Origin: Mucidula mucida
Lineage: Eukaryota; Basidiomycota; Agaricomycetes; Agaricales; Physalacriaceae
Direction of reading: 5' to 3'
DNA: 64,000 nucleotides
NCBI GenBank assembly: GCA_015501055.1
Contig: JADNYV010000164.1
Coordinates: 1 to 64,000 of the forward strand
In this document: in pieces, positions 3,728 to 57,986 of the stretch
Layout: every line of letters starts with the position of its first letter
Numbering within the stretch: the first letter of the stretch is position 1
Notes under the pieces: model-generated
Seen by the model: only the letters and a program-made list of their open reading frames with translations
Database searches by the model: none
What the model was told of the DNA's origin: nothing
Program-made: the position numbers and the translations under genes

Positions 3728-4868
3728 ATGATTATTATGAAGGAGTACGGCGACCGCAACTACCTACAGAGGAAATATGAGGATGCACTCAAACGTCACA
3801 TCTCTTCCAGGTGGTCGTTCACCAAAGTCATCGAGAAACTCTCAATAGAGTCGGCCCCCAATAAGCGTCCCATCCCGTCGTTTGCTTTAGATGGTGGCGA
3901 ATATTGTTTTCAATTGATCAGCGCTCCCAAGCCAGCGTCATTTGCGGAACCGGAGAGCGCCCAGAGTTCCCAAGTCTGGGTAGCGAATGTATTCAAAACC
4001 GACTCTTGCGGCCCCACCGTCCAGCAGAGCCAGCCCGAGCGTGTCATCTTGAAGATTCTTCAGCCCTCCATGCGCCCGTTCCCGGATGACAGAGGGATTC
4101 GTCTGGGATCACCTGCGCATCAATTGGCTTACTCCGAAGAAATTCTCTATAAGCATCTGCGGCCGTTACAGGGACCTCACATTCCCTACTACTTCGGCAC
4201 CTTCCTGGTAAGTTATCGCTGCAGTGCACACTTCGGCGACTGACTCCACGACTAAGGTGACTCTTCCGAACGGAGAAGATGCTTATATTCTCATCCTGGA
4301 ATATATTGAGGGCGAGCTGCTCCAAGAGTGGCTAAAGAAATATGACACGAACGAAGACCGCGCAATCACACTGCTTCCCGTCATGGTACGTTCCATCACG
4401 ACTTGCACGCAATCGTTGAATGGGATCTAGATTCACTCCCTCATTGATACTTTTCACGCCATCCATGTAGCTTACGTAGCACACACTGATATGGTTCAGA
4501 ACCCCTTCACCAACATTATTGCTCGTCTTGACGCAACGGTCGTTATTCTTGATTTTGCACAATGTGCGATACTGGAAAATCCTGTGGATACAGAAAAACT
4601 TGTTCGTGCAATGTCGCGCGGCAGTGTCAACCAAGGCTACCGTTGTGTCCGCACGCTCTTGCGCTGCTGCCTGGCCTGTGCGAGGGAACCGGCTAAAGTT
4701 AGGCTCAAGGAATGGATCAGTATGCCAGGTAATGTACCTGCCGAGGTCCAATATCCCGACGGACCACTCATAGATTCTGGTCCGAGTCATGATAGCCAAG
4801 ACAACGATGATGATGGTGATGATGATTTTTACGACAGTGACACTCTGACGGATTCTGATGAAGATTGA
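3728..4868 (+). CDS. Kinase-like protein, subfamily A copy 1 (5'-truncated)
   Basis: Three exons, 3728-4207, 4257-4385 and 4431-4868, give 348 residues; both introns (49 and 45 nt) are phase 0. The protein has an N-lobe with RVILKILQPS (presumed ATP-binding lysine), a hinge-like LILEYIEGELLQEW, a degenerate catalytic loop HTDMVQNPFTN and ILDFAQC in place of DFG. An acidic tail ends FYDSDTLTDSDED. Other A members begin MPATSCPAY...; here that start is lost because the copia LTR ends at 3717, about eleven bases before the ATG used. Upstream transcription signals would come from the LTR. Function is unknown and activity doubtful because HRD and DFG are altered. The spliced frame is otherwise open. 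Confidence 0.7.
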
Positions 4869-14575: not shown

Positions 14576-15791
14576 ATGCCCGCTACGTCCTGCCCTGGAT
14601 ACAAGCTATACTCCCACATTCCTACCGCTCTTATGACGGAGTCTCACGACCGCGACTATCTAGAGAGGAAATATAACGCTGCACGCAAACATCGCATAAC
14701 TCCCAGGTGGTCGTTCACCGAAGTCATCGAGAAACTCCCAATAGAGCCGACTCCCAATAAGCGCCCCATCCCGTCTTTTGCTCTAGATGGTGGCCAATAT
14801 TGTTTTCGACCGATTAGCGCTCCCAAGCCAGCGTCATTTGCGGAGTCTCAAAGCGCCCCGATGTCCCAAGTCTGGGTAGCGAAGGTCTTCAAAGCCAATG
14901 GCGGCACCACCGTCCAGCAAAGCCAGCCCGAGCGTGTCATCTTGAAGATTCTCCAGCCCTCCATGTGCCCGTTACCCGATGGCAGAGGGATTCGTCTGGG
15001 ATCACCTGCGCATCAATTGGCTTACTCTGAAGAGATTCTGTATAAGCATCTGCTGCCATTACAGGGCTCTCAAATTCCCTACTACTTCGGCACGTTCCTA
15101 GTAACTTATTATTGCAGTGCACTTTTCGTCGACTGACTCCTCGACTTAGGTGACTCTTCCAAACGGAGAAGATGCCTACGTTCTCATCCTGGAATACATT
15201 GAGGGCGAGGTGCTTGAAGAATGGGTCGATGAATATGACACGAACGACACCCACGCACGCGAACTACTACTTCCCGTTATGGTACGTTATACCACGACTT
15301 ACCCTCAGTCGTTGAATGTCTTTCAGATTCACTCCATCATCGATACCTTTCGCGCCATCCATGGAGCTTGCGTAGTACATACAGATATGGACATGGACTT
15401 CACCAACATTATTGTTCGTCCCGACGGAACAGTTGTTATCATTGATTTCGCACAATGCGCGCTCCTGAAAACTCCAGCAGAGACAGAAACACTGGTTCGT
15501 AAGAGGGTGCGCGGCAGTGACAACCAAGCTTACCCTTGCGTCCGCGCGCTCTTGTGGTGCTGTCTGCGCAATGCGGGGGAACCGGCTAGAGCTAGGCTGG
15601 AGGATTGGGCGAATACTCCAGGAAATATACCCTCTGAGGTCATGTATCCAAACGGACCACCCAGGCCCGTTGACAGTGACGAAGAGGGCGACAATGAAGA
15701 GAGCGATGACGAGGAGAGCGACGAGGAAGAGAGCGACGAAGATTCTTCTTCTTCTTACAAAAGCGATGTGACGGAATCTGATGAAGATTGA
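14576..15791 (+). CDS. Kinase-like protein, subfamily A copy 2
   Basis: Exons 14576-15100, 15150-15281 and 15327-15791 give 373 residues starting MPATSCPGYKLYSH. Motifs are RVILKILQPS, the hinge-like LILEYIEGEVLEEW, the altered catalytic loop HTDMDMDFTN, and IIDFAQC for DFG. The tail is long and acidic (EESDDEESDEEESDED), ending SYKSDVTESDED. Intron 2 (45 nt) keeps the frame and has no stop, unlike the other A copies whose intron 2 ends in an in-frame TAG; its retention would add 15 residues. The copy is intact. Catalysis is doubtful because of the motif changes; role unknown. Confidence 0.8.
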
Positions 15792-16505
15792 GGATTCGGT
15801 GCATCCTTCGTTACCTGTTCTGTATCGTACTACTTTTAATAAGGAAAGCAATTTACAGCGCTGGTTGTACTGCTCAAAACGTCATAACACGCTTTCCTAA
15901 GCAAGTCAAACCGTTGGGAGGAAATCAGAAGGCGAATGAAGAAGGCTTGAGACGGCACCAAATTTCAATGTCGCTTGAAGTCTTTGCGTCCGTCTGTGCT
16001 ACCAACGTAAACGCATCGCGTATGCTCGTGACTCAACAACTTCGGAAACTATATCGTAAATGGAGAGTGTTCGCCATGTACTACGGGGTACGATATCATC
16101 ATCCGCTTACGACCTGGACGCGACTGATACTTCATGTAGATTGAACCGTGGGGAGAGGCTGTACAACTTCTTCGGCGCGTTTCCTCCAGACGTAGGAGAC
16201 ACGGCGGATTATGTCGGGGGGATTGGCCATAATGGTATACAGATGGCACAAACTCAGGCTGGTCTGAATCGGCTTTTGTGAGTCCTCAATTAAGCTACGA
16301 TTCTGGTAGCTTACGTTCACACACTGGCAGCTTTGACAATTTCAATGGTAACGGATCTTGTCATGCTAGTACCGGGGAGTGAGGTCCTTCCCATCGGCCT
16401 GGTCAGGCGGCGACATATCCTTAAAACATATACCGCTACTTAGAATCTTAGACGGATCGCTATTCACTAGACGTTTGATTCCCTATTTCACTTCAATGCA
16501 TAACA
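15792..16505. other. 3' flank of A2, no gene seen
   Basis: The first 100 bases resemble the 3' flanks of other A copies (a GTACTACTTTT-like stretch). The rest holds only short overlapping frames on both strands with no family signal. Confidence 0.6.
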
Positions 16506-28592: not shown

Positions 28593-29835
28593 ATGCCCGC
28601 TACATCCTGCCCTGCCTACGAGATAGACGAGGACATTCCCGTCACTCTTATGGAGGAGTATGGCGACCGCGACTATCTACAGAGGAAATATGAGGATGCA
28701 CGCAAACGTCGCATCTCTTACAGGTGGTCGTTCACCGAAGTCATCGAGAAACTCCCAATTGCACCAACTCCCAATCAGCGTCCAATCCCGTCGTTTGCTT
28801 TAGATGGTGGCCAATATTGTTTTCGACCGATTAGCGCTCCCAAGCCAGCGTCATTTGCGGAAGCGGAGAGCGCCCAGAGTTCCCAAGTCTGGGGTGCGAA
28901 TGTCTTCAAAGCTGACTCTTGCGGCCCCGCCGTCCAGCAGAGCCAGCCCGAGCGTGTCATCTTGAAGATTCTCCAGCCCTCCATGCGCCCGTTCCCGGAT
29001 GACAGGGGGATTCGTCTGGGATCACCTGCGCATCAATTGGCTTACTCTGAAGAGATTCTGTATAAGCATCTGCGGCCATTACAGGGCTCTCATATTCCCT
29101 ACTACTTCGGCACGTTCCTGGTAACTTAGTATTGCAGTGCACTCTTCGTCGACTGACTCCTCGACTAAGGTGACTCTTCCAAACGGAGAAGATGCCTACG
29201 TTCTCATCCTGGAATACATTGAGGGCGAGGTGCTCCAAGAATGGGTCACGGAGTATGACACGAACGAAACCCGCGCACGCGAAGTACTTCCCGTTATGGT
29301 ACGTTCCCTCACGACTTACACACAGTCGTTGAATGTTTTCTAGATTCACTCCCTCATTGATACCTTTCGCGCCATTCATGGAGCCTACGTAGCGCACACC
29401 GATATGCACATGGACTTGACCAACATTATTGTTCGTCCCGACGGGACAGTCGTTATCATTGATTTTGCAGACTGCGCGATATTGGAAACTCCCCAGGATA
29501 CAGAAAGACTTGTTCGTACATTGGCGTGCGGCAGTGACAACCAAGGCTACTATTGTGCTCACAGGCTCTTGAACTACTGTCTATACAATGCGGGAGGACC
29601 GGCTAGAGCTAGGCTGCAGGATTGGGCGAGGACTCCAGGAAATATACCCGCTGAGGTCATGTATCCAGACGGACCACCCAGGCCCGTTGACAGCGACCAA
29701 GAGAGCGATGGCGACGATTCTTCGTTTTACAAAAGCGACGCGACGGACTCTGATGATGCATTTTACGAAAGCGATGCGACGGCCTCTGATGTTTCGTTGC
29801 ACGAAAGCGATGCGACGGACTCTGATGAAGATTGA
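28593..29835 (+). CDS. Kinase-like protein, subfamily A copy 3
   Basis: Exons 28593-29120, 29170-29298 and 29344-29835 encode 382 residues (MPATSCPAYEIDEDIPVTL start). Introns of 49 and 45 nt are phase 0. Motifs: RVILKILQPSM, hinge-like LILEYIEGEVLQEW, catalytic loop HTDMHMDLTN, and IIDFADC for DFG. The tail has three tandem units of about 12 residues (FYKSDATDSD, FYESDATASD, LHESDATDSD) before the final ED; A1 and A2 show one. The copy is intact and nearly identical to A4. HTD for HRD, two extra residues before the loop Asn, and DFA for DFG argue against ordinary kinase activity. Confidence 0.8.
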
Positions 29836-31027
29836 AGCTTCGGCGCATTGTTTGATACCTGTACGGTACTGTACTACTTTTCAGTAAAGGAAAGCAGTTT
29901 ACAACAATTGTCATACTTCATTGTTCGGAAATTTCATTGAACGTCTCTAGGGACGATGCTATCGCAAATGGACTGAGAGTAAACTTTCGGCGTCGGCGGA
30001 AAGCAAGTGAGATGGTATTTCTGTCACTTCTTAGCGCTAACCCGTCTAGGCGAGCTTGGGTAACGAGGCTCCGGCAGTATCAAGTGACACGAATGCTCCC
30101 ACTGATGGCTTGATCGAATCCCCTGCAACTCTGTCAGTAGCTGCCTCTTAGGCAGTCGGTCTGGTATATTCCTAGGACCGTCAGCTAACATATACATGTG
30201 TTGAGCGTCCAGCACCGGTGAGTACTACGGCGCGTTTTGTTATTCCTCGTGAAAGGACAAGCGACGACAGCCCTCTCCCTCATCAAACATTTCATGTCCA
30301 TCAATGACACTTTGCATGCAGAACCCGAGACCCCCTACCCCATACGCATCTACCGAGAAGCGGTAAACTCCAAAGCATTGTTATCCTTCCTTTAAATAAA
30401 ACTTCTGGAAGGGTTCACGTAAATCCCTCTGCGTCTCTCATCCCCGTCCCCGCGTTAATGCCAACCTGTGTCCTGGCGAAGCCTCATCGCTACCCGACTG
30501 GGCTTAACGAAAAAGTATACGTCAGCATGCACGGATACCCTTCCTACAAGTCATGGCATTTACAGCCTCATACCCTCTTCACGCGCATCAGACTGCGCCA
30601 CCTCGGATTCTGTCGAGGTTGATGCGATTCCTGGAATCATTACTGGGCAGCGCAGCCGCCGAATATTCTTCATTGTCCTAGCCCAGCAGAGAGCCGTTGA
30701 AGGCACAAGTCAACCGAGCTGCACAGGAGAAGTTCCATGGAGAGCATCAGGCGGTGGGACAGAATTCGGGGATGTAACGAGAGGCCGAGGTAGTGGCACA
30801 GGCATAAGCTGTAGATGGAGCCAATCGATATAAAGGCTACTAGTATCCCTCTTCCTTCTTCGTTCGGGTCGCCTCACTTTAGTTAAGATCACATTGTTTT
30901 CGTATCGTACATAGAAATAACTGGATAGGTAACTGCATAGCAAGACATAGTAAGGTAGAGAGTAAAATACAAAGCATTAATCACAACATGAGAGCGTGTC
31001 AGAGCGGCGGCTCCGGGGAGATCAACG
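29836..31027. other. A3 3' flank with a small unrecognised plus-strand ORF
   Basis: From about 30459 a frame beginning MPTCVLAKPHRYPTG is open briefly, then coding-like sequence continues in another frame (SLIPSSRASDCATSDSVEVD...) to near 30833. The same arrangement is at 47537-47856. A TTTAAATAAAA box lies about 70 bases upstream. It may be a small gene of about 105 codons with one frame change; no family recognised. Confidence 0.3.
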
Positions 31028-31940
31028 TCAAGGACAATATTTCCTTCGATGTCCTTCAATCGTTAAAGGGAGGGCTCTCTGCCTCCGATCAAACAACTCA
31101 ATCCACAGCCGCATCATCTTTTTCCATAAGCCACCGTTCCTCCTCCACTCTCCCTCAAGGCCACTGACAATGACATCCGCGAGGTAGATGTCCTTTCCCA
31201 AATCAGCTCCTGACAATGAAACATCTTGTCCCCCTCCGGCGCGTTGAGGTCGTACTTCGCGTTAGGTAGCGGAAATCCTTCACGGAACCACTATACAAGC
31301 CCAATTGCTCGCGTGAAACGACCGTGATAAACGGTTCAATGAGGATACCCTGTAGCGTAGGAGAGGAAAGGAACGCTATGAGGAGTTCGGCAAGCGCTCT
31401 GTACATGTCGTGTTTTTCATTGACTACCGTGAGGTCGTGGAGGAGTATGTGGACAAGAAGCGGGAGGAATGAGCGCCGGATAAGAAATGGAACGGATTCG
31501 TGAATGTCGTACCGACGATCAGAGAGCGATCTAGGAGATACCGCACAATCGTGTTGACTGGGGCGACCGTATCATCGCTGATCATGGAAATGTTCAGCGG
31601 GATGACTTCTCGTCATATCCACCGTCCGTACCAGGAGCCCGAGAAAATCCATGATGCTCAAGTCCTGTTGAACAACCCGATCCAGGTCGTCGAGGAACTG
31701 GAGCAGTTCCCAGCGCGCGTAATGTTGCTACTGCCCAAAGCAGCTCCGGAAGAGCTCGTGATGCTTTGCACCTTCACTCCGGAACTCCTCGAGAGCCGCC
31801 ATATAATCCGGAGGCGATGAAGCAGGCGCTTTCGACGCGCGAGTGGCGTCGGTGAGACTGGAATCGCTGTTACTTCTCGTCCGTCGGGGGTAATGTTCGT
31901 GAAATTCCTCCAATCCCGATGGAGGGAGAATCGCAGGCAT
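31028..31940 (-). pseudogene. Hypothetical protein G, copy 1 (many single-base deletions)
   Basis: Homologous over its whole length to the intact 307-codon frame at 48111-49034. In this copy at least eight one- or two-base losses interrupt it, for example AACCACTATACAAG for AACCACTTATACAAG and GACTTCTCGTC for GACTTCACTCGTC. Differences are dominated by deletions rather than substitutions, which may be pseudogene decay or uncorrected consensus errors. Function unknown. Confidence 0.75.
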
Positions 31941-32666
31941 TTCATCACTGTAATCATCGTCCCATAAGTCCGAGTAGTGAGCTGCTAGAAAGAACGATAT
32001 ATTAGTACGTGTCAAGCCATTGTGGAAGCGCGTGTACATGACTCGGGATCTCTGAAACTTGTCGGAAAAACTTCGTCGTCATGGCTCCAGGCTACCGAAA
32101 GAAGAAGAAGGAGGATCAATAGGAGACGGTGCATAGGGAGTTAGACGCACAAGAAGATTCTTCGGACGCGGACGAAGTCGACCTCGTAGTCGACGTCCAT
32201 TCAGGACCGAAGTCAGCAGAAGCTGTAAAGTATTAAAACGTTCCGCTGATGCTGGTCAGCTAGAATTACATACAGCGAGACGATTTCTCGGAGCTCGCGC
32301 GTTCTAAAGAGCCTCGTCAACAAAGCTTACAGGTTCCGAAGGAGAACGGGGTCATACCGTAGCGAAGCGTGCCCGAGTGCCGCTGAAACTTTGCCTGTTC
32401 AATGCTACCGCCATACGGCGGCGGCTTAGGGACTGGCATGATGATAGCAGAAAGACAACAGCAGCTTGCACTGGAGGGTATTTAAATACGGTGCCGGCTG
32501 TGCGCGACACAGCGACTCATATCAGAGCACCTGGGGTATAGCTGTGAAGTGCCACGCCCTGACTCATACCGCCCTTCGTCGTGTGAATAGATACGAACAT
32601 GACAATGTACATGTGCTACGACTGATGCAGAGATCATGATGGACACACATTCGGCGTGATGGGCGC

Positions 32667-33215
32667 TTAAGGTTCAAGGTATTCAAAACCTTGGTATGTC
32701 GTACATTGTCTAATCGAAAACGTTAGTTGAGCGGGTACCCAATATAGAACGTGCCTGAATGTATACATACCTACACAGGCGCCCCGGCGATAGTCAAAGC
32801 GGTAGTCCACGATGCACGTTCTGAGAAAAGAAACGATAGACGTGTAGATTTTATGTAGCGGTCCGGAAAAGGGCGGTCCGTCCTTCAACCGAACATTGAT
32901 AGAAACATTACAAAGCGCATACACGTCCGTACGTTTGTAACGCAACATGAGATGATGAGCATCGGTCCTGTAAAATGTCAGGGGATGAACAAGGCATCTA
33001 GTTTAGAAAGTCTCTGACCTTCGCAAGTACTTGTGGGGTATCTCAATGATGGTATACCGCTGCAAGAGAATCATCTACAACGAGTCACTTGGTGGAGATA
33101 GAGGCAGCCGTACCCACAAACACGCCACAGTGAGTGTCATGACTTGTTCATGACCGTTCGAGAAGAAAAGGTGTGATCGGTGGCTGTGCCGATGCGATTG
33201 TGATCAACTAAGTAC
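32667..33215 (-). CDS. Hypothetical small protein O, copy 1
   Basis: Minus-strand coding-like sequence (MLRYKRTDVYALCNVSINVR...RLKDGPPFSGPLH) runs to a donor gtaggt near 32770, and a further segment upstream resembles the 50067-50309 frame of the second copy (PLSPPSDSLEMILLQRSTII). The first part is open here but broken in the second copy; the upstream part is the reverse. No family recognised. Confidence 0.25.
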
Positions 33216-45668: not shown

Positions 45669-46911
45669 ATGCCCGCTACATCCTGCCCTGCCTACGAGAT
45701 AGACGAGGACATTCCCGTCACTCTTATGGAGGAGTATGGCGACCGCGACTATCTACAGAGGAAATATGAGGATGCACGCAAACGTCGCATCTCTTACAGG
45801 TGGTCGTTCACCGAAGTCATCGAGAAACTCCCAATTGCACCAACTCCCAATCAGCGTCCAATCCCGTCGTTTGCTTTAGATGGTGGCCAATATTGTTTTC
45901 GACCGATTAGCGCTCCCAAGCCAGCGTCATTTGCGGAAGCGGAGAGCGCCCACAGTTCCCAAGTCTGGGGTGCGAATGTCTTCAAAGCTGACTCTTGCGG
46001 CCCCGCCGTCCAGCAGAGCCAGCCCGAGCGTGTCATCTTGAAGATTCTCCAGCCCTCCATGCGCCCGTTCCCGGATGACAGGGGGATTCGTCTGGGATCA
46101 CCTGCGCATCAATTGGCTTACTCTGAAGAGATTCTGTATAAGCATATGCGGCCATTACAGGGCTCTCAAATCCCCTACTACTTTGGCACGTTCCTGGTAA
46201 CTTATTATTGCAGTGCACTCTTTGTCGACTGACTCCTCGACTAAGGTGACTCTTCCAAACGGAGAAGATGCCTACGTTCTCATCCTGGAATACATTGAGG
46301 GCGAGGTGCTTGAAGAATGGGTCACGGAGTATGACACGAACGAAACCCGCGCACGCGAAGTACTTCCCGTTATGGCACGTTCCCTCACGACTTACACACA
46401 GTCGTTGAATGTTTTCTAGATTCACTCCCTCATTGATACCTTTCGCGCCATTCATGGAGCCTACGTAGCGCACACCGATATGCACATGGACTTGACCAAC
46501 ATTATTGTTCGTCCCGACGGGACAGTCGTTATCATTGATTTTGCAGACTGCGCGATATTGGACACTCCCGAGGATACAAAAAGACTTGTTCGTACATTGG
46601 CGTGCGGCAGTGACAACCAAGGCTACTATTGTGTTCACAGGCTTTTGAACTACTGTCTATACAATGCGGGAGGACCGGCTAGAGCTAGGCTGGAGGATTG
46701 GGCGAGGACTCCAGGAAATGTACCCGCTGAGGTCATGTATCCAGACGGACCACCCAGGCCCGTTGACAGCGACCAAGAGAGCGATGGCGACGATTCTTCT
46801 TTTTACAAAAGCGACGCGACGGACTCTGATGATGCATTTTACGAAAGCGATGCGACGGCCTCTGATGTTTCGTTGCACGAAAGCGATGCGACGGATTCTG
46901 ATGAAGATTGA
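45669..46911 (+). CDS. Kinase-like protein, subfamily A copy 4
   Basis: Exons 45669-46196, 46246-46374 and 46420-46911 encode 382 residues, nearly identical to A3. Motifs: RVILKILQPSM, LILEYIEGEVLEEW, HTDMHMDLTN, IIDFADC, and the same three-unit acidic tail. Intron 2 starts GCACGT instead of GTACGT, giving a GC-AG intron; the exonic ATG before it is conserved, so splicing is still plausible. If it fails, the TAG at the intron end truncates the protein before the catalytic loop. Otherwise intact. Confidence 0.8.
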
Positions 46912-48110
46912 AGCTTCGGCGCATTGTTTGATACCTGTACGGTACTGTACTACTTTTCAGTAAAGGAAAGCAGTTTACAACAATTGTCATACTTCATTGT
47001 TCGGAAATTTCATTGAACGTCTCTAGGGACGATGCTATCGCAAATGGACTGAGAGTGAACTTTCGGCGTCGGCGGAAAGCAAGTGAGATGGTATTTCTGT
47101 CACTTCTTAGCGCTAACCCGTCTAGGCGAGCTTGGGTAACGAGGCTCCGGCAGTATCAAGTGACACGAATGCTCCCACTGATGGCTTGATCGAATCCCCT
47201 GCAACTCTGTCAGTAGCTGCCTCTCAGGCAGTCGGTCTGGTATATTCCTAGGACCGTCAGCTAACATCTACATGTGTTGAGCGTCCAGCACCGGTGAGTA
47301 CTACGGCGCGTTTTGTTATTCCTCGTGAAAGGACAAGCGGCGACAGCCCTCTCCCTCATCAAACATTTCATGTCCATCAATGACACTTTGCATGCAGAAC
47401 CCGAGACCCCCTACCCCATACGCATCTACCGAGAAGCGGTAAGACTCCAAAGCGATTGTTATCCTTCCTTTAAATAAAACTTCTGGGAAGGGTTCACGTA
47501 AATCCCTCTGCGTCTCTCATCCCCGTCCCCGCGTTAATGCCAACCTGTGTCCTGGCGAAGCCTCATCGCTACCCGACTGGGCTTAACAAAAAAGTATACG
47601 TCAGCATGCACGGATACCCTTCCTACAAGTCATGGCATTTTACAGCCTCATACCCTCTTCACGAGCATCAGACTGCGCCACCTCGGATTCTGTCGAGGTT
47701 GATGCGATTCCTGGAATCATTATTGGGCAGCGCAGCCGCCGAATATTCTTCATTGTCCTAGCCCAGCAGAGAGCCGTTGAAGGGCACAAGTCAACCGAGC
47801 TGCACAGGAGAAGTTCCACGGAGAGCATCAGGCGGTGGGACAGAATTCGGGGATGAAACGAGAGGCCGAGGCAGTGGCACAGGCATAAGCTGTAGATGGA
47901 GCTAGTCGATATAAAGGCTACTAGTATCCCTCTTCCTTCTTCGTTCGGGTCGCCTCACTATTAGTTAAGATCACATTGTTTTCGTATTAGTACATAGAAA
48001 TAACTGGATAGGTAACTGCATAGCAAGACATAGTAAGGTAGAGAGCAAAATATAAAGCATTAATCACAACATGAGAGCGTGTCAGAGCGGCGACTCTGGG
48101 GAGATCAACG
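46912..48110. other. A4 3' flank with a small unrecognised plus-strand ORF
   Basis: Second copy of 29836-31027. The frame MPTCVLAKPHRYPTGLNKKV starts at 47537, with continuation in another frame (SLIPSSRASDCATSDSVEVD) ending 47856. Evidence for a protein is weak. Confidence 0.3.
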
Positions 48111-49034
48111 TCAAGAATAATATTTCCTTCGATGTCCTTCAATCGTTAAAGGGAGGGCTCTCTGCCTCCGATCAAACAACTCAATCCACAGCCGCATCAT
48201 CTTCTTCCATAAGCCGACCGTTTCCTCCGCCACCTCTCCCTCAAGGCCACTGACTATGACATCCGCGAGGTAGATGTCCTTTCCCAAATCGAGCTCCTGA
48301 CAATGAAACATCTTGTCCCCCTCCGGCGCGTTGAGGTCGTACTTCGCGTTAGGTAGCGGAAATCCTTCACGGAACCACTTATACAAGCCCAATTGCTCGC
48401 GTGAAACGACCGTGATAAACGGTTCAATGAGGATACCCTGTAGCGTAGGAGAGGAAAGGAACGCTATGAGGAGTTCGGCAAGCGCTCTGTACATGTCGTG
48501 TTTTTCATTGACTACCGTGAGGTCGTGGAGGAGTATGTGGACAAGAAGCGGGAGGAATGAGCGCCGGATAAGAAATGGAACGGATTCGTGAATGTCGGTA
48601 CCGACGATCAGAGAGCGATCTGTGAGATACCGCACTATCGTGTTGACTGGGGCGACCGTATCATCGCTGATCATGGAAATGTTCAGCGGGATGACTTCAC
48701 TCGTCATATCCACCGTCCGTACCAGGAGCCCGAGAAAATCCATGATGCTCAAGTCCTGTTGAACAACCCGATCCAGGTCGTCGAGGAACTGGAGCAGTTC
48801 CACAGCGCGCGTAATGTTGCTACTGCCCAAAGGCAGCTCCCGGAAGAGCTCGTGATGCTTTACACCTTCACTCCGGAACTCCTCGAGAGCCGCCATATAA
48901 TCCGGAGGCGATGAAGCAGGCGCTTTCGACGCGCGAGTGGCGTCGGTGAGACTGGAATCGCTGTTACTTCTCGTCCGTTGGGGGTAATGTTCGTGAAATT
49001 CCTCCAATCCAGAAGGAGAGAGAATCGCAGGCAT
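48111..49034 (-). CDS. Hypothetical protein G, copy 2 (intact)
   Basis: An uninterrupted frame of 307 residues (MPAILSPSGLEEFHEHYPQR start). After a Ser-rich N-terminus, residues 60-250 are leucine-rich and probably helical (AVELLQFLDDLDRVV, LLVHILLHDLTVV, LAELLIAFLSS), suggesting an armadillo/HEAT-like fold, followed by a C-terminal KKMMRLWIELFDRRQR stretch. In-frame sequence (AHYSDLWDDDYSDE) continues upstream, so a short 5' exon may be missing. No enzyme motif, signal peptide or membrane segment. Function unknown; it resembles family F in fold impression only. Confidence 0.55.
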   Translation of the reverse strand: MPAILSPSGLEEFHEHYPQRTRSNSDSSLTDATRASKAPASSPPDYMAALEEFRSEGVKHHELFRELPLGSSNITRAVELLQFLDDLDRVVQQDLSIMDFLGLLVRTVDMTSEVIPLNISMISDDTVAPVNTIVRYLTDRSLIVGTDIHESVPFLIRRSFLPLLVHILLHDLTVVNEKHDMYRALAELLIAFLSSPTLQGILIEPFITVVSREQLGLYKWFREGFPLPNAKYDLNAPEGDKMFHCQELDLGKDIYLADVIVSGLEGEVAEETVGLWKKMMRLWIELFDRRQRALPLTIEGHRRKYYS

Positions 49035-50449
49035 TTCATCACTGTAATCATCGTCCCATAAGTCCGAGTAGTGAGCTGCTAGAAAGAACGATATATTAGT
49101 ACGGTGTCAAGCCATTGTGGAAGCGCGCGTACATGACTCGGGATCTCTGAAACTTGTCGGAAAAACTTCGTCGTCATGGCTCCAGGCTACCGAAAGAAGA
49201 CGAAGGAGGATCAATAGGAGACGGTGCATAGGGAGTTAGACGCACAAGAAGATTCTTCGGACGCGCACGAAGTCGACCTCGTAGTCAACGTCCATTCAGG
49301 ACCGAAGTCAGCAGAAGCTGTAAAGTATTAAACGTTCCGCTGATGCTGGTCAGCTAGAATTACATACAGCGAGACGATTTCTCGGAGCTCGCGCGTTCTA
49401 AAGAGCCTCGTCAACAAAGCTTACAGGTTCCGAAGGAGAACGGGGTCATACCGTAGCGAAGCGTGCCCGAGTGCCGCTGAAACTTTGCCTGTTCAATGCT
49501 ACCGCCATACGGCGGCGCTTAGGGACTGGCATGATGATAGCAGAAAGACAACAGCAGCTTGCACTGGAGGGTATTTAAATACGGTGCCGGCTGTGCGCGA
49601 CACAGCGACTCATATCAGAGCACCTGGGGTATAGCTGTGAAGTGCCACGCCCTGACTCATACCGCCCTTCGTCGTGTGAATAGATACGAACATGACAATG
49701 TACATGTGCTACGACTGATGCAGAGATCATGATGGACACACATTCGGCGTGATGGGCGCTTAAGGTTCAAGGTATTCAAAACCTTGGTATGTCGTACATT
49801 GTCTAATCGAAAACGTTAGTTGAGCGGGTACCCATATAGAACGTGCCTGAATGTATACATACCTACACAGGCGCCCCGGCGATAGTCAAAGCGGTAGTCC
49901 ACGATGCACGTTCTGAGAAAAGAAACGATAGACGTGTAGATTTTTTTAGCGGTCCGGAAAAGGCGGGTCGTCCTTCAACCGAAATTGATAAGACATTACT
50001 TCGAAACGCATACATGTCCAACATTTGTAACGCAACATGAGATGATGAGCATCGGTCCTGTATATGTCAGACGGGGATGAACAAGGCATTTAGTCTAGAA
50101 AGTCTCTGACCTTCCAAGTACTTGTCGGGTATCTCAATGATGGTAGACCGCTGCAAGAGAATCATCTCCAACGAGTCACTTGGTGGAGATAGAGGCAGCC
50201 GTACCCACAAACACGCCACAGTGAGTGTCATGACTTGTTCATGACCGTTCAAGAAGAAAAAGGTGTGATCGGTGGCTGTGCTGATGCGATTGTGATCAAC
50301 TACACGCATTATCCCGAAACCTACCCAAAACTTAGCGTGATAGCAGGTGCAGGTCTACCAGACGTGGCATGCGCCCAACGACCGAGAGCTTATCGAGTGA
50401 AGAGACATTGCAAGAAAATGAGTAATGACATTTACATTTACATTGTTGT
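49035..50449. other. Second copy of the O region, mostly non-coding
   Basis: Homologous to 31941-33450. The frame corresponding to 32667-32948 is broken here, while 50067-50309 (minus) is open. No supported gene. Confidence 0.4.
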
Positions 50450-52086: not shown

Positions 52087-53156
52087 TACCGTTGCCGAGA
52101 CGTTCATGGTCTGTGTTCGGCGACATTACCTGGGCCTGCCGTCCGGAGACCCAGCTGTCCCGCCAACCCCAGTGCCAACCCAACGCCAACCTCAGTATAA
52201 TCGGGCGCCAGTCCAATGAACGCAGGGCGCGCCGAGGTGTTTCAAACGTGTTGAGATCTCCTACCACTGGGTGACCTTGATGCTCAACCTATTCCAGTCA
52301 GTGCCCACGGCGCGTCCTGTCCTCTCATGAGTGGCGTTTTCTAATTTCCACGCTCTCTTCATTCCACATCCTCAACGCGTATCGGCATTGTACTATTTTG
52401 TGGCTATGTGTTCTTAACCTTTTTCTAGCACTTCACATATATGTACTATAGCTTAACCTCCTTATTGTTTGACTGAGAGTTTCTCTGATTGTTGAGTTTA
52501 TGCAAGGATGACTGTTAAGTGAGTGCATATAATCCTCTTACTAAACATACTGGCAGCACTCACACATCTCCACCTTACTGAGGTTAGAAATAACATGTTG
52601 TGTCAAGGACTCGAGGCTAATCCTCTTCGAGTGGCTTTAATCATGTGAGTGTTTCTCTCTTGCATTCACGATATCGCGTGCGCGCGTCTTTGGCGCTCAT
52701 CTTACCTGTCTTTGGCGCTTTCTCATTCCGTGGACGCGACACGGATCTTCCTGGAGTGTCCTCGGCGTGTTTGCTATGCATACTCAGCATACTCCGTTGC
52801 TGTATGTTCTTCCAGTGCTGCCCCAAACTTGAGACAACTCACAAGCACGTTGTCAAGACCCGCCCATCGTAGTACTTACTTCGTCTCACCTTGTCTCTCT
52901 AGAAGATGCTCTCCTTTCCTTTGTTCAATTTCTTCATCCACCCTTGCGAAACAAGTCTGTCACAATGTATTGGTATGGAGGATGTATGGAGGAGAGCTTG
53001 TTTTTGTCCTGCTCTGAATGCAAGACATTCATTTCTTGATGTTCAGTCGTGCGGGATGGCGGGGCTTGGGCGGGGGCCATGCGCATTACCTAGGGTCCGG
53101 ACGGTAGGCCTAGGTAATGTCGCCGAAAACAGACCATGAACGTCTCGGCAACGGTA
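52087..53156. mobile_element. Non-autonomous inverted-repeat DNA element, 1.07 kb
   Basis: The first 60 bases (TACCGTTGCCGAGACG...) and the last 63 are inverted repeats with about five mismatches, flanked by TCCGAG at 52081-52086 and 53157-53162. If the ends are trimmed by one base the target duplication could be 8 bp with one mismatch (ATCCGAGT / ATCCGAGG), as for hAT elements. The interior has no transposase. It lies about 120 bp upstream of the dioxygenase start and may affect its promoter. Confidence 0.75.
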
Positions 53157-53930: not shown

Positions 53931-54580
53931 CTACACAGGCACCTTCAGCTCTTGCGCATGCCATCGATAAATCTCTAAAATCGAGGCGCCCCGTCTATCT
54001 ACCTTCCCAAGCTGGTTGTCCAAAATATTAAGAACAGCGGGGATATCGGCCTCCATGTTGTTGCCGTTTACTGCTGGTAGAAGGAGGTTCGCATACACCT
54101 GCCCAAGAATCGAGGCCTCCTCCCAGAACATGAGAGACGTGAAGGTCTTTGGCATCATCTCAAGAACGAGTGTATCCCTCCCTGCCCTGCGTAGGTACCG
54201 TGGGTTCAGTAAACTGAGAGGCGGGCAGGCGAAGAAGACTCACCAACGATGATTGAAGAGCGCCCCGCCGTGAGGACCGATAATTGCACGAACGTTTTCG
54301 TGGAACCAATGAATCAAGGCTTGCTGGGACTGGAATGTCTTCTCATGGAAAAGGACGAGTTCTTCGCCTTGTCCACGCTCCTCCAGCTTCGCTTCAATGG
54401 CGACAAGAAGCTCGTCTTCGTCGATGACACGTCGGCCACCGTTGGAGACGCCGCCGTGAGAGCGACTAGCGTAAACAATCTACACAAAGTATGTCAATCG
54501 GGCCTCCGGCGAGAGCAGTGTTCTCACTTTTTTACGCTGATCAAGTGGTATTGACTGCCCCAATCCAAACGTCTCGAGTG
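53931..54580 (-). pseudogene. GT61-family glycosyltransferase, 3' part (split by insertion)
   Basis: Minus-strand exons are the end of exon 3 (54528-54580, TFGLGQSIPLDQRKK), exon 4 (54244-54479) and exon 5 (53931-54186). Exon 4 reads IVYASRSHGG, GGRRVIDEDELL, ELVLFHEK and AIIGPHGGALFNHRW; exon 5 reads RDTLVLEMMPKTFTSLMFWE. The GPHGxxL and NEDEL-like motifs mark family GT61 (DUF563), Golgi/ER transferases that add sugars such as GlcNAc or xylose. Splice phases agree. The 5' part lies at 56850-57986 on the other side of the insertion. Confidence 0.9.
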
Positions 54581-54593
54581 CGGCCCCGCAATT

Positions 54594-54990
54594 TGGCCGT
54601 GGCCGCTACCGTGCATGCACGGTAGCGGCTCACGGCCGCACGGTAGCACAGCCACAGCCCAAGTTGCGCCACCTTCCACGTCCCCAGGAGCATCTATTTT
54701 CAAGCGGATGAGTTATGCGTCGGCTATAAAATGTATCAATGAACACATCTTGGTAGCAAAACTTTGTGTGGTCAGACCAAAAATCACCAAGAATGAGCAA
54801 AGTTTTTCTGGTGGCCGCTACCGTGCGCACGGTAGACCCTGCACGGCCCACGGTTGCACGGTACTCACGGCAGCGGCCACGGTCGTCTGCACGGTAGCGG
54901 CCACGGTACTCTTACGTCACGCACGGTAGCGGCAGTAATGCGAACACGGTAGCACGGTAGCACGGTACTCGCACGGTAGTGCTCACGGGC
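54594..54990. repeat. GCACGGTAGCGGCCACGGTA-type array, left end of the insertion
   Basis: Irregular units built from GCACGGTAGCGGC and its inverse occupy 54594-54662 and 54811-54990, separated by about 150 bp of other sequence. Many units are palindromic (ACCGTGCATGCACGGT). Related units lie at the right end of the insertion. Confidence 0.8.
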
Positions 54991-55259
54991 GTGACAAGCG
55001 CGTGACAGCATGTTACACCTGCGTTACCGTTTGACTTTTGGATCTTCCTAGAATTACTCGTTGATGGTCCTACATCAATGAATATATGTCCAGGGATATG
55101 TATACCGCTGTTTGATACTCCGAATGTCACGAAGAAATCTCCGCTATTCCCTCCGGAGTTCTAATGTCCTTTTAATCGTTGGGAATGCTCCTGGCAGACT
55201 GGTTAGATCCAATCCGGACCCTCCGTATGCCTTAATCATTCCTGATACTACGGATTCCA

Positions 55260-55890
55260 CTCACATGTCGCCCCCCGCTTCCATTTGCCAACCCGCTGCC
55301 GGTGGCACCAATTGCACGTACTTACTGAAGGAATCAGAGCCTGACACATGTGTCCGATGATCCATGCTTTTTGGCCAGCTTCTTCGGCAGCTTGGAGTTT
55401 TTGGACTGCAAAGGCCATTATGCCATTGGGGTCAGGACTGGTAGTGACGTTGAGAACAGCGTAAATTGATACAGGCATGCAACAAGGTACTGCTGCTCGT
55501 CCGAGTCGTATATCCAGAGACTAAGGATGAGGCATCAACGGCCAGGACAAGGGAATACGAGGGAAAGCTGGCTTTAGATTGTACCAGTACACGGTATTCA
55601 GCGAAATTATACTTTATCGCAACTCAGTCAGACGATGACGAGAAGAGGAACTAAAGATATACCCTAAATTTGTTCCTGGTGCGACCACAGAGTAGCTTCC
55701 AGAGTGATACTTCAGCTGCTTGGCGGCCGTGGCGTTGATCCAAGGCGCCCACTCGGAACTCGCTGCCTCAAAAACATATTGTGCATCGTAACCCGTCGCA
55801 TCAGCAGCTGGGGTGTCACTTGTTGAGAAGTTGTTTGCTGGAGCAGCCTCACTGGTAGTCAAATAAGTAGCCACAAATGAAACAATCACT
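55260..55890 (-). pseudogene. Acid-sphingomyelinase-like phosphodiesterase, captured internal fragment
   Basis: The minus strand reads EAAPANNFSTSDTPAADATG, DAQYVFEAASSEWAPWINAT, YHSGSYSVVAPGTNL, then after a short intron ISLNTVYWYNLKP, and after a further gap SPDPNGIMAFAVQKLQAAEE and GQKAWIIGHM. These are the central motifs of acid-sphingomyelinase-like metallophosphoesterases, secreted or lysosomal enzymes that hydrolyse phosphodiesters. The upstream GD and GNH metal-binding region and everything after GHM (normally followed by a proline-rich metal-site segment) are missing. It lies wholly within the Mutator-like insertion and in the orientation of GT61. Confidence 0.8.
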
Positions 55891-56415
55891 GTCACTTACC
55901 GTAGTAACAAGTTGTCTCAAAGGACAAGAAATATAATAATCGGGAGACAAGGGATCACAAGCTACAGACTCAGTTTTGGCAACTAACACGTGAAAAGCAT
56001 AACCAGGATATGAGACACCCCGACCGGCGACAAGCGCTCTCCAGTCCGTGGTGTCCCGCCTCATATCGGCGAGCCATTGATGCCAACCATGCGCGACCCA
56101 GGCATAGCCTGCACATGGATCCGTCTGTATCCCGCTTGTATGTACTTCCGCACCTTGATTTCTGATCGCCCACCCGGGGATCGCGCTTGCTCTTGCGCTC
56201 GCGACTTATGCTGCAGGCTGTGGAATATCAGGATCAGCATTGGCGTGGTGGAGTCTCACCCACAGCAGCAGGAGAGAGGGTACGTGAAGGCTCCCATGAT
56301 CGGTGGAGCAGAGCAGGACCAAGTTGATGGAAAGGAGACCTTTCATCTCTGTCTGGTGCGTGTGAGGGCGGCGGCAGATAGAAACTTGGTCCTGCTGGAG
56401 CGCCGAGAGCATTTA
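55891..56415 (-). other. Protein-like sequence upstream of the captured fragment, unrecognised
   Basis: The minus strand has an open coding-like stretch (AIPGWAIRNQGAEVHTSGIQ, GYAWVAHGWHQWLADMRRD, GYAFHVLVAKTESVACDPLS) ending at a good donor gtaagt near 55896, with a hydrophobic LLLLWV frame about 100 bp further upstream. It might be a second captured fragment spliced to the phosphodiesterase part. No family recognised. Confidence 0.35.
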
Positions 56416-56715
56416 ACGAGTTCGTATTTTACGAGGGTGACCTTGCGGCAGTGCGTTACATCGCCGAGAACAGTAGAAGACGTGCTTGCAATGGTACGGG
56501 TGGAACCGAGGGGACTTGCAATGGAAAATACCATATTAAAATTAGAGAAGAAAGCTATGCTGTATGCACCACAGGCTAGTAAAGAAGGAAACGAGATATA
56601 TCCAAGGTGTTAATAGACGTGTCGTGATAGATGCTGGCGAGTGAGAGTCAAGACGGGATCGCCCCATAACAGTGTTACGCCTTCAAGTCACAGTGTGACC
56701 ACATCTTCGTAACGC

Positions 56716-56834
56716 TGCGTGCCACGGTAACAGGGTCCATCACGGCAGTGATGCACGGTAATGATGCACGGTAGCGGCCACGGTAACGGTAGCGGCCACG
56801 GTAGCGTGCACGGTAGCACGGTAGCGGCCACGGC
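56716..56834. repeat. GCACGGTAGCGGCCACGGTA-type array, right end of the insertion
   Basis: Units such as CACGGTAGCGGCCACGGTA are repeated irregularly up to the right inverted repeat. They match the left-end array in opposite sense, consistent with long degenerate terminal repeats. Confidence 0.8.
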
Positions 56835-56849
56835 ACTTTTGTGGTGCCC

Positions 56850-57986
56850 TCTCGAGTGTCTTCAGAGATAGCCAGGGATGAACAAGCGGCGCCCGACAAG
56901 AGAAAATGACCATCTGAGCTCCAAGGTCGTGTTGATTGTGATGCATCCGCTCGGCCTCGTAGCCCAGCATCTTCCACATCTCCAATATGGGGCCGCTAGG
57001 CTTCCTACCCGTAACAACATCGCCATGAGACCCTAGTAAAAGATGCGAACCTTGACCGACGATATGCCTGATTTGATTTGAATATCAGACGCAAGGAAAT
57101 TGTTGCATACACACGTGACACGGTCGAGGAAGTGCTGAAACGACCAAGAATCCGGGGAAGTCGCGATGAGCAGTGTGTCAATGGGATACGCCGTTTCGTA
57201 CTCCTCGTGAGTGAGCTCTGTGCGGTTTGACAGAATCTCCAAGCCAGACGTGGATACACCGTCGCTCATGCATGCTAGGTCGTTCCAGGAATCGGCTGGA
57301 GGATCACCTCTATACGTGGCATTGCCGATGATCTGATATCATAATGAATAGAAGCAGCCGGCAAGTTGGAAAGAGAAGGTACTACGTACGATATTCTGGC
57401 CCGTTTGGCCGCGATAGCAGACGAAGTCTTCCTCTTCGCATAGTGCGGCGCGTTCGCGGATCCCGTCGACAAGGCGAACCCACTGTTTGGCGTCGCTAGC
57501 TCGCAAAGGCGAAAAGATGGGCATACGGAGGCGGAAGTCTGGGTAGAGCAGTTCCTCGCCATAAAGAGCTCCGTAGGTGCGTTGAGCGACGCAAGGTGCA
57601 TAGTATTGAGGCGTAGTTGGATGGCATTCGGTGATCGCAGAAGGAGTCCATCGTGGTGACTCTGCCGCTTCGCGCGACGGGCTCATTACCCATATGAGAT
57701 CCCGAAGAGCATCCACCGATGTCGGTTGCGTTTCAAAGTACTGATAATGCAGGTCATGGATCCGCTGTCGTGTCGCCCGGTCGAGTCCAGCTCTGAGGGA
57801 AAGTGTAAACAGAACGACGATGATGAAGGCAGAAATAAAGTAGATTGAGAGGCGCCGTCTGCCACTCCGCAATTGGAGATTGGACCGAATAGCAGCCTCT
57901 GAGGCTGATTCGCTGAAGTAGATAGATTTGTATGCGTGCACCGTTCGAATCCATGGCCAGGGAGTAGTGGACCGAGAAAGCATCAT
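56850..57986 (-). pseudogene. GT61-family glycosyltransferase, 5' part (split by insertion)
   Basis: Minus-strand exon 1 (57390-57986) starts MMLSRSTTPWPWIRTVHAYK and has a membrane segment near residue 50 (IYFISAFIIVVLFTLSL), giving a type II Golgi-membrane topology, then ECHPTTPQYYAPC. Exon 2 (57115-57332) contains PDSWSFQHFLDRV, a GT61 signature. Exon 3 begins at 57067 (HIVGQGSHLLLGSHGDVVTG) and runs through ILEMWKMLGYE and FSCRAPLVHPWLSLKTLE, where the insertion starts. All splice phases fit. The gene was intact before the insertion; now transcripts would read into the element. Confidence 0.9.

Follow-up and report, generated by a model that had tools for sequence, protein, structure and literature searches.

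In the agaricomycete Mucidula mucida, a glycosyltransferase gene of the GT61 family is split by a 2,269-bp insert that is very probably a non-autonomous, cut-and-paste DNA transposon, mobilised in trans and carrying captured sphingomyelinase DNA. The locus lies in a 64,000-nucleotide stretch of contig JADNYV010000164.1 (hereafter, the window), which is part of contig C121 in a 59.9-Mb genome assembly of 1,047 contigs; other contigs are likewise given by C number. The label that fits best is Pack-MULE-like transduplication, carried out in an agaricomycete by an element of Rehavkus/Mutator type. Capture of gene fragments by transposons is a familiar phenomenon in plants, whereas few descriptions exist for fungi. 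Here, the capture of an intron-containing fungal gene by an inverted-repeat transposon can be traced within one genome through its donor, the chimera, two insertions and one empty allele. The features of the locus are as follows.

53934..54571, minus strand: 3' (C-terminal) half of the GT61 gene, bearing the PF04577 match (flank joining, homologue alignment)
54572..54580, no strand: left copy of the 9-bp target-site duplication, TCTCGAGTG (sequence)
54581..56849, plus strand: non-autonomous element of 2,269 bp (limits from the duplication and the sister copy at C960:24528-26796)
54581..54614, plus strand: left terminal inverted repeat, 34 bp (27/34 matches; outer 18 bp once in the insert)
54866..54967, plus strand: left subterminal minisatellite-like stretch of CACGGTAGCGGC units (repeat reading; ACGGTA/TACCGT counts near the ends of 12 elements)
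55347..55880, minus strand: captured acid-sphingomyelinase fragment, exon parts with three introns, in the sense of GT61 (95.1% identity to the donor)
56059..56312, plus strand: second stretch of foreign DNA, with about 70% identity to repeat-like sequence on C22 and C206 (sequence comparison)
56741..56833, plus strand: right subterminal stretch resembling a minisatellite, with units of roughly 12, 13 and 18 bp, reaching the right repeat (repeat reading)
56816..56849, minus strand: right terminal inverted repeat, 34 bp (20-mer 56829-56848 repeated across the genome)
56850..56858, no strand: right copy of the 9-bp target-site duplication, TCTCGAGTG (sequence)
56859..57986, minus strand: 5' (N-terminal) half of the GT61 gene, three exons with limits read by eye (flank joining, homologue search)

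An earlier reading of the letters alone (the sequence-only reading) had proposed that the GT61 gene is split by a 2,269-bp insert and that excision restores its frame, and both the joined flanks and the contiguity of homologues agree. Joining 81 and 72 flanking bases by script produced HPWLSLKTLE/TFGLGQSIPLDQRKK in one of three frames. The exon at 54243-54479 matches PF04577 (E 2.4e-7); the other five GT61 pieces tested against Pfam gave no relevant match. A search with the N-terminal half returned 67 proteins, 55 of them with PF04577, the best matches being from Trametes, Auricularia, Lenzites and Irpex, and 60 of the 67 aligned to both halves. Among these, a homologue is informative about the junction if its second-half alignment begins within the first 3 residues of that half, and in all 13 such homologues the two halves abut exactly at LE/TFGL (e.g., Trametes SLRSLETFGLDP). 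The remaining 47 start later, mostly beyond an intron, and are uninformative: by extrapolation, two would leave a gap of one residue and 45 would overlap. Past LKTLE, the GT61 frame runs into the insert for 36 residues and then stops, and the PF04577 part is therefore cut off; the function of the gene was presumably lost through the insertion. The proposed 9-bp duplication and 34-bp inverted repeat with 27 matches were likewise recovered at the same positions and with the same counts. It is extremely improbable that a repeat was simply misjoined into GT61 during assembly. The many contigs, the mixture of haplotigs among them and the lack of a second allele at the site would suit such an artefact, but a misjoin is not expected to yield a target duplication, and here the duplication is exact, the frame continuous and the homologues contiguous at the junction.

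The origin of the captured DNA is equally traceable. The 534 bp at 55347-55880 are 95.1% identical to C937:487349-487882 and to the haplotig C499, and this alignment to one donor locus, with three introns retained, bears out the proposal of an acid-sphingomyelinase-like piece taken with its introns from genomic DNA. Over 6 kb, C937 and C499 share 99.3% identity, and the assembly holds both haplotypes in places; the pair most likely represents haplotypes, not recent duplicates. A 2,451-bp query taken from the donor gene found four places in the genome: C937, C499 and two elements, both elements matching over the same donor span. In the PDB, a donor exon found solved structures of sphingomyelin phosphodiesterases (E 2.5e-15), and three pieces of the donor gene returned no relevant match from Pfam. 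Donor and element have in common the exon pieces GTNL, ISLNTVYWYN, LWIYDSDEQQY and DPNGIMAFAVQ(E/K)LQAAEEAGQKAWIIGHM, with introns between them; all three introns are kept in both (exon limits read by eye), in keeping with capture from genomic DNA. Over this span the donor haplotigs are identical; of its 534 positions, 26 differ between donor and window copy, and 27 between donor and the second element, on C960. Of the 16 differences between the two elements, 9 fall inside the fragment. These differences, of element from donor and of element from element, indicate that capture preceded the last movement. No microhomology was seen at the fragment limits, since element and donor already diverge at the first bases beyond the ungapped block on either side. 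One capture is demonstrated in this way; several independent captures are not.

The second fragment-bearing element, at C960:24528-26796, is 99.3% identical to that of the window (16 substitutions in 2,269 bp, without gaps) and holds the same fragment. It bears on a very unlikely alternative, in which two short family elements came to flank a sphingomyelinase piece through local rearrangement, forming a composite unit with no internal capture. Short family members exist (327 bp at C223 and 70 bp at C667/C549) and the subterminal repeats are dense, which favours such an origin. Against it, the outer 18 bp on the left and 17 bp on the right occur once each in the insert and at the C960 copy, each copy has a single outer duplication, and the entire 2,269 bp stands at two sites with identical fragment limits. 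A single transposon with internally captured DNA thus remains our reading, and the C960 locus speaks to its movement: the fragment-bearing element is present on one haplotype, and the other has an empty site with a single 9-mer. Accordingly, the fragment-bearing unit moved after capture. More broadly, searches with ten right flanks found a second genomic place for eight, with none of useful length for C156 and C926. The comparison of empty alleles covered eight places at seven loci, with C223 left out for a flank that matches several places. Clean empty alleles, with the 9-mer present once, were found for C960, C196 and C71, and C505 has a nearly clean one in C182 along with a more diverged relative in C118.

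Had the ends been unique to this site, the transposon interpretation would have suffered; they are not. The genome contains 19 occurrences of the 20-mer from the right end, 18 of them exact, against 0 for the reversed control pattern, and perfect 9-bp duplications surround insertions at nine loci: the window, C960, C156, C180, C196, C71, C926, C223 and C667/C549, the last a 70-bp copy present on both contigs and counted as one insertion locus. Of the 12 elements counted, eight have 27 ungapped matches between their 34-bp repeats and four have 14-26. C190 is without an intact left end, and C793, C287 and C860 were examined at their right ends only. Between the common ends, the interiors fall into several classes: the window with C960; C505, C660, C71 and C736; C190 and C926 with C180; C838 with C196; and the long element of C156. 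Interior sequence is also common to C793, C287 and C838.

Three members of the family merit separate description. The 70-bp member (L026:2025-2094 and L027:1909-1978) is little more than one end set against the other, flanked by a 9-bp duplication of its own, GTTCTTCGC. It suggests that the ends may be enough for movement, provided that it did not become shorter after inserting, and it would offer a compact substrate for transposition assays. The copy at C660:135269-142829 holds an apparent Ty1/copia retrotransposon (frames read by eye), and its outer flanks are without duplication. On C736, a single 17-kb contig carries two inverted copies that are 99.9% identical and have the same flanks, which is either a palindromic duplication or an assembly artefact.

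The insert itself has no interior frame longer than 199 aa, and two interior frames tested against Pfam were without a match. It is, in other words, a host-gene fragment between inverted repeats with no transposase inside, which is the composition of a Pack-MULE. Its right subterminal array (56741-56833) is modest, with about 2 to 6 copies per unit. The second foreign stretch matches C22 (L047:3082-4018) and the corresponding C206 sequence, which have inverted repeats of about 125 bp around an interior that is about 70% identical to element positions 1479-1732; this is perhaps a different small transposon.

The search for a partner transposase with the same ends, suggested by the sequence-only reading, produced one candidate. 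The 6,780-bp element on C156 has these ends and a perfect duplication, and it contains the only GCM-domain match in the genome; among the copies fetched, a GCM transposase occurs in C156 alone. Three segments of its gene align with an Agrocybe protein of 1,426 aa, spanning residues 30-1424, and a ubiquitin-protease-like region accompanies the GCM domain. A PHD finger (PF00628) scores E 0.023 in the C156 gene and E 3.6e-4 in the Agrocybe homologue, both under the curated cut-off, and none was found in seven other homologues, several of which are partial. We consider the C156 protein the likely partner that moves these ends. An ordinary genomic MULE transposase of the PF10551 type could do so instead, and enzymes are at hand (15 places in the genome, 13 above the curated cut-off, several with open frames of more than 500 aa); we nevertheless regard it as unlikely. 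Of the 15, the two whose ends were read (C594 and C704) end in the unrelated TGATTATGGGCAATCGCACCC, whereas C156 is the sole GCM transposase among the fetched copies and has exactly the ends in question.

Taken together, these observations suggest the following history. An ancestral element would have gained 534 bp of chromosomal acid-sphingomyelinase DNA; a template switch or repair synthesis within that element is the probable route. The chimeric unit would then have moved with an enzyme supplied in trans, for which the GCM-domain transposase of the C156 element, which has the same ends, is the likeliest candidate. One copy entered GT61, generating the 9-bp duplication and severing the PF04577 part from the reading frame, and another entered the C960 locus on one haplotype only.

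Several observations weigh against this account. The duplication at C505 is imperfect (8 bases with a one-base slip), and none was found at C660, C838 or the two C736 copies. Of the seven loci tested, four yielded an empty allele; in the case of C180 and C838 the right flank alone matched, and at C660 both flanks matched at a distance of 64 bp from each other. For the GT61 site, no second allele, empty or occupied, was found in the assembly. The capture is not very recent, because the donor differs at 26/534 positions, and its right breakpoint is soft, because a gapped alignment extends about 20 bases further at low identity. For the interiors of other elements, the outside matches are all diverged or ambiguous. 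Beyond its first frame of 738 aa, the C156 gene crosses stops, which may be introns or damage. Finally, no transposition event was observed.

The window and the genome around it contain other repeats. One, at 52087-53156 of the window, spans roughly 1,070 bp; its inverted ends measure some 60 bp (TACCGTTGCCGAGACGTTC...), it may be flanked by a 6-bp duplication (TCCGAG), and at least 11 near-full-length copies occur elsewhere in the genome. Positions 28924-33210 and 46000-50302 form a 4.3-kb direct duplication with 98% identity, shorter copies of which (83-85%) are found at 14904-15857, at 4011-4770 and in C121 beyond the window. A separate PF10551 MULE family is represented by C594 (L050:2203-5791) and C704 (L051:1957-5528), with ends TGATTATGGGCAATCGCACCC, open frames of 570 aa and copies that are 98% identical.

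Where the element belongs among known transposons is a question with a graded answer. The sequence-only reading called it Mutator-like, and this stands insofar as the element has terminal repeats and a duplication of a length within the 8-11 bp given for MULEs (PMC6446971, PMC6431247): the duplication is exactly 9 bp at nine loci, with one near-match and four copies that lack it. The enzyme gave no such support. The C156 protein and eight homologues gave no Pfam MULE match, a genome search with PF10551 did not include C156 among its matches, and a profile comparison of the C156 type with the genome's own MULE transposases, based on shallow alignments, was blank. The missing MULE match and the blank comparison leave some room for another superfamily that makes 9-bp duplications and is neither Mutator nor Rehavkus, a possibility that we hold to be real but rather doubtful. 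Rehavkus, described as an outgroup or sister of MULEs, is characterized by a 9-bp duplication, inverted repeats of 26-400 bp, a PHD finger and a minisatellite by the 3' repeat, and its hosts are given as insects and annelids only (PMC6446971). Our elements have the 9-bp duplication, inverted repeats within that range, a minisatellite before the 3' repeat and perhaps, at scores under the cut-off, a PHD finger, which makes a partial fit to the published features; they differ in their fungal host, GCM domain and ubiquitin-protease-like region. Helitron membership is contradicted by the target duplication and the terminal inverted repeats, and hAT membership fails on the 8-bp duplication, the present one being 9 bp.

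The plant Pack-MULEs are the closest functional parallel. They are described as non-autonomous elements that have a host-gene fragment between their repeats and depend on an enzyme in trans (PMC6446971, PMC6431247). The window element resembles them in all of these respects and in a duplication within 8-11 bp; it differs in its fungal host, in a GCM/PHD-type candidate transposase with no detectable MULE match, and in one firmly traced capture as opposed to large numbers. The sequence-only reading's view that such capture is rare in fungi is broadly right but not absolute, given the hAT elements with histone H3 in ascomycetes (PMC3538342, PMC6710886). The case in Pyrenophora tritici-repentis is called the first transduplication by DNA elements in fungi (PMC3538342), and in Mycosphaerellaceae hAT elements with 8-bp duplications carry histone H3 copies, of which an intronless one was inferred to be captured (PMC6710886). 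Like ours, these are fungal DNA transposons that carry and multiply a host-gene copy; unlike ours, they are hAT elements of ascomycetes, for which PMC6710886 gives 8-bp duplications and an intronless transcript or retrocopy, where the present element has 9 bp and an intron-containing genomic fragment. Because the fragment here contains introns and one of the hAT-based cases is intronless (PMC6710886), a DNA-level capture route as in plants is indicated. Helitrons of Pleurotus ostreatus are likewise basidiomycete class-II elements with extra genes, but they move by rolling circle and make no target duplication, and, as reported for that species, none of the intact Helitrons contained fragments of host genes (PMC4289320). 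Tentatively, and with the balance tipped somewhat against so specific a claim, the family may represent a distinct agaricomycete DDE clade related to Rehavkus and Mutator, with a GCM zinc finger, DDE core, ubiquitin-protease-like region, PHD finger, 9-bp duplications and subterminal minisatellites. It would be mobile, now or until recently, in a fungus with two haplotypes, where it builds gene-fragment chimeras from genomic DNA, and would thereby parallel the Pack-MULEs from outside the classical MULE clade.
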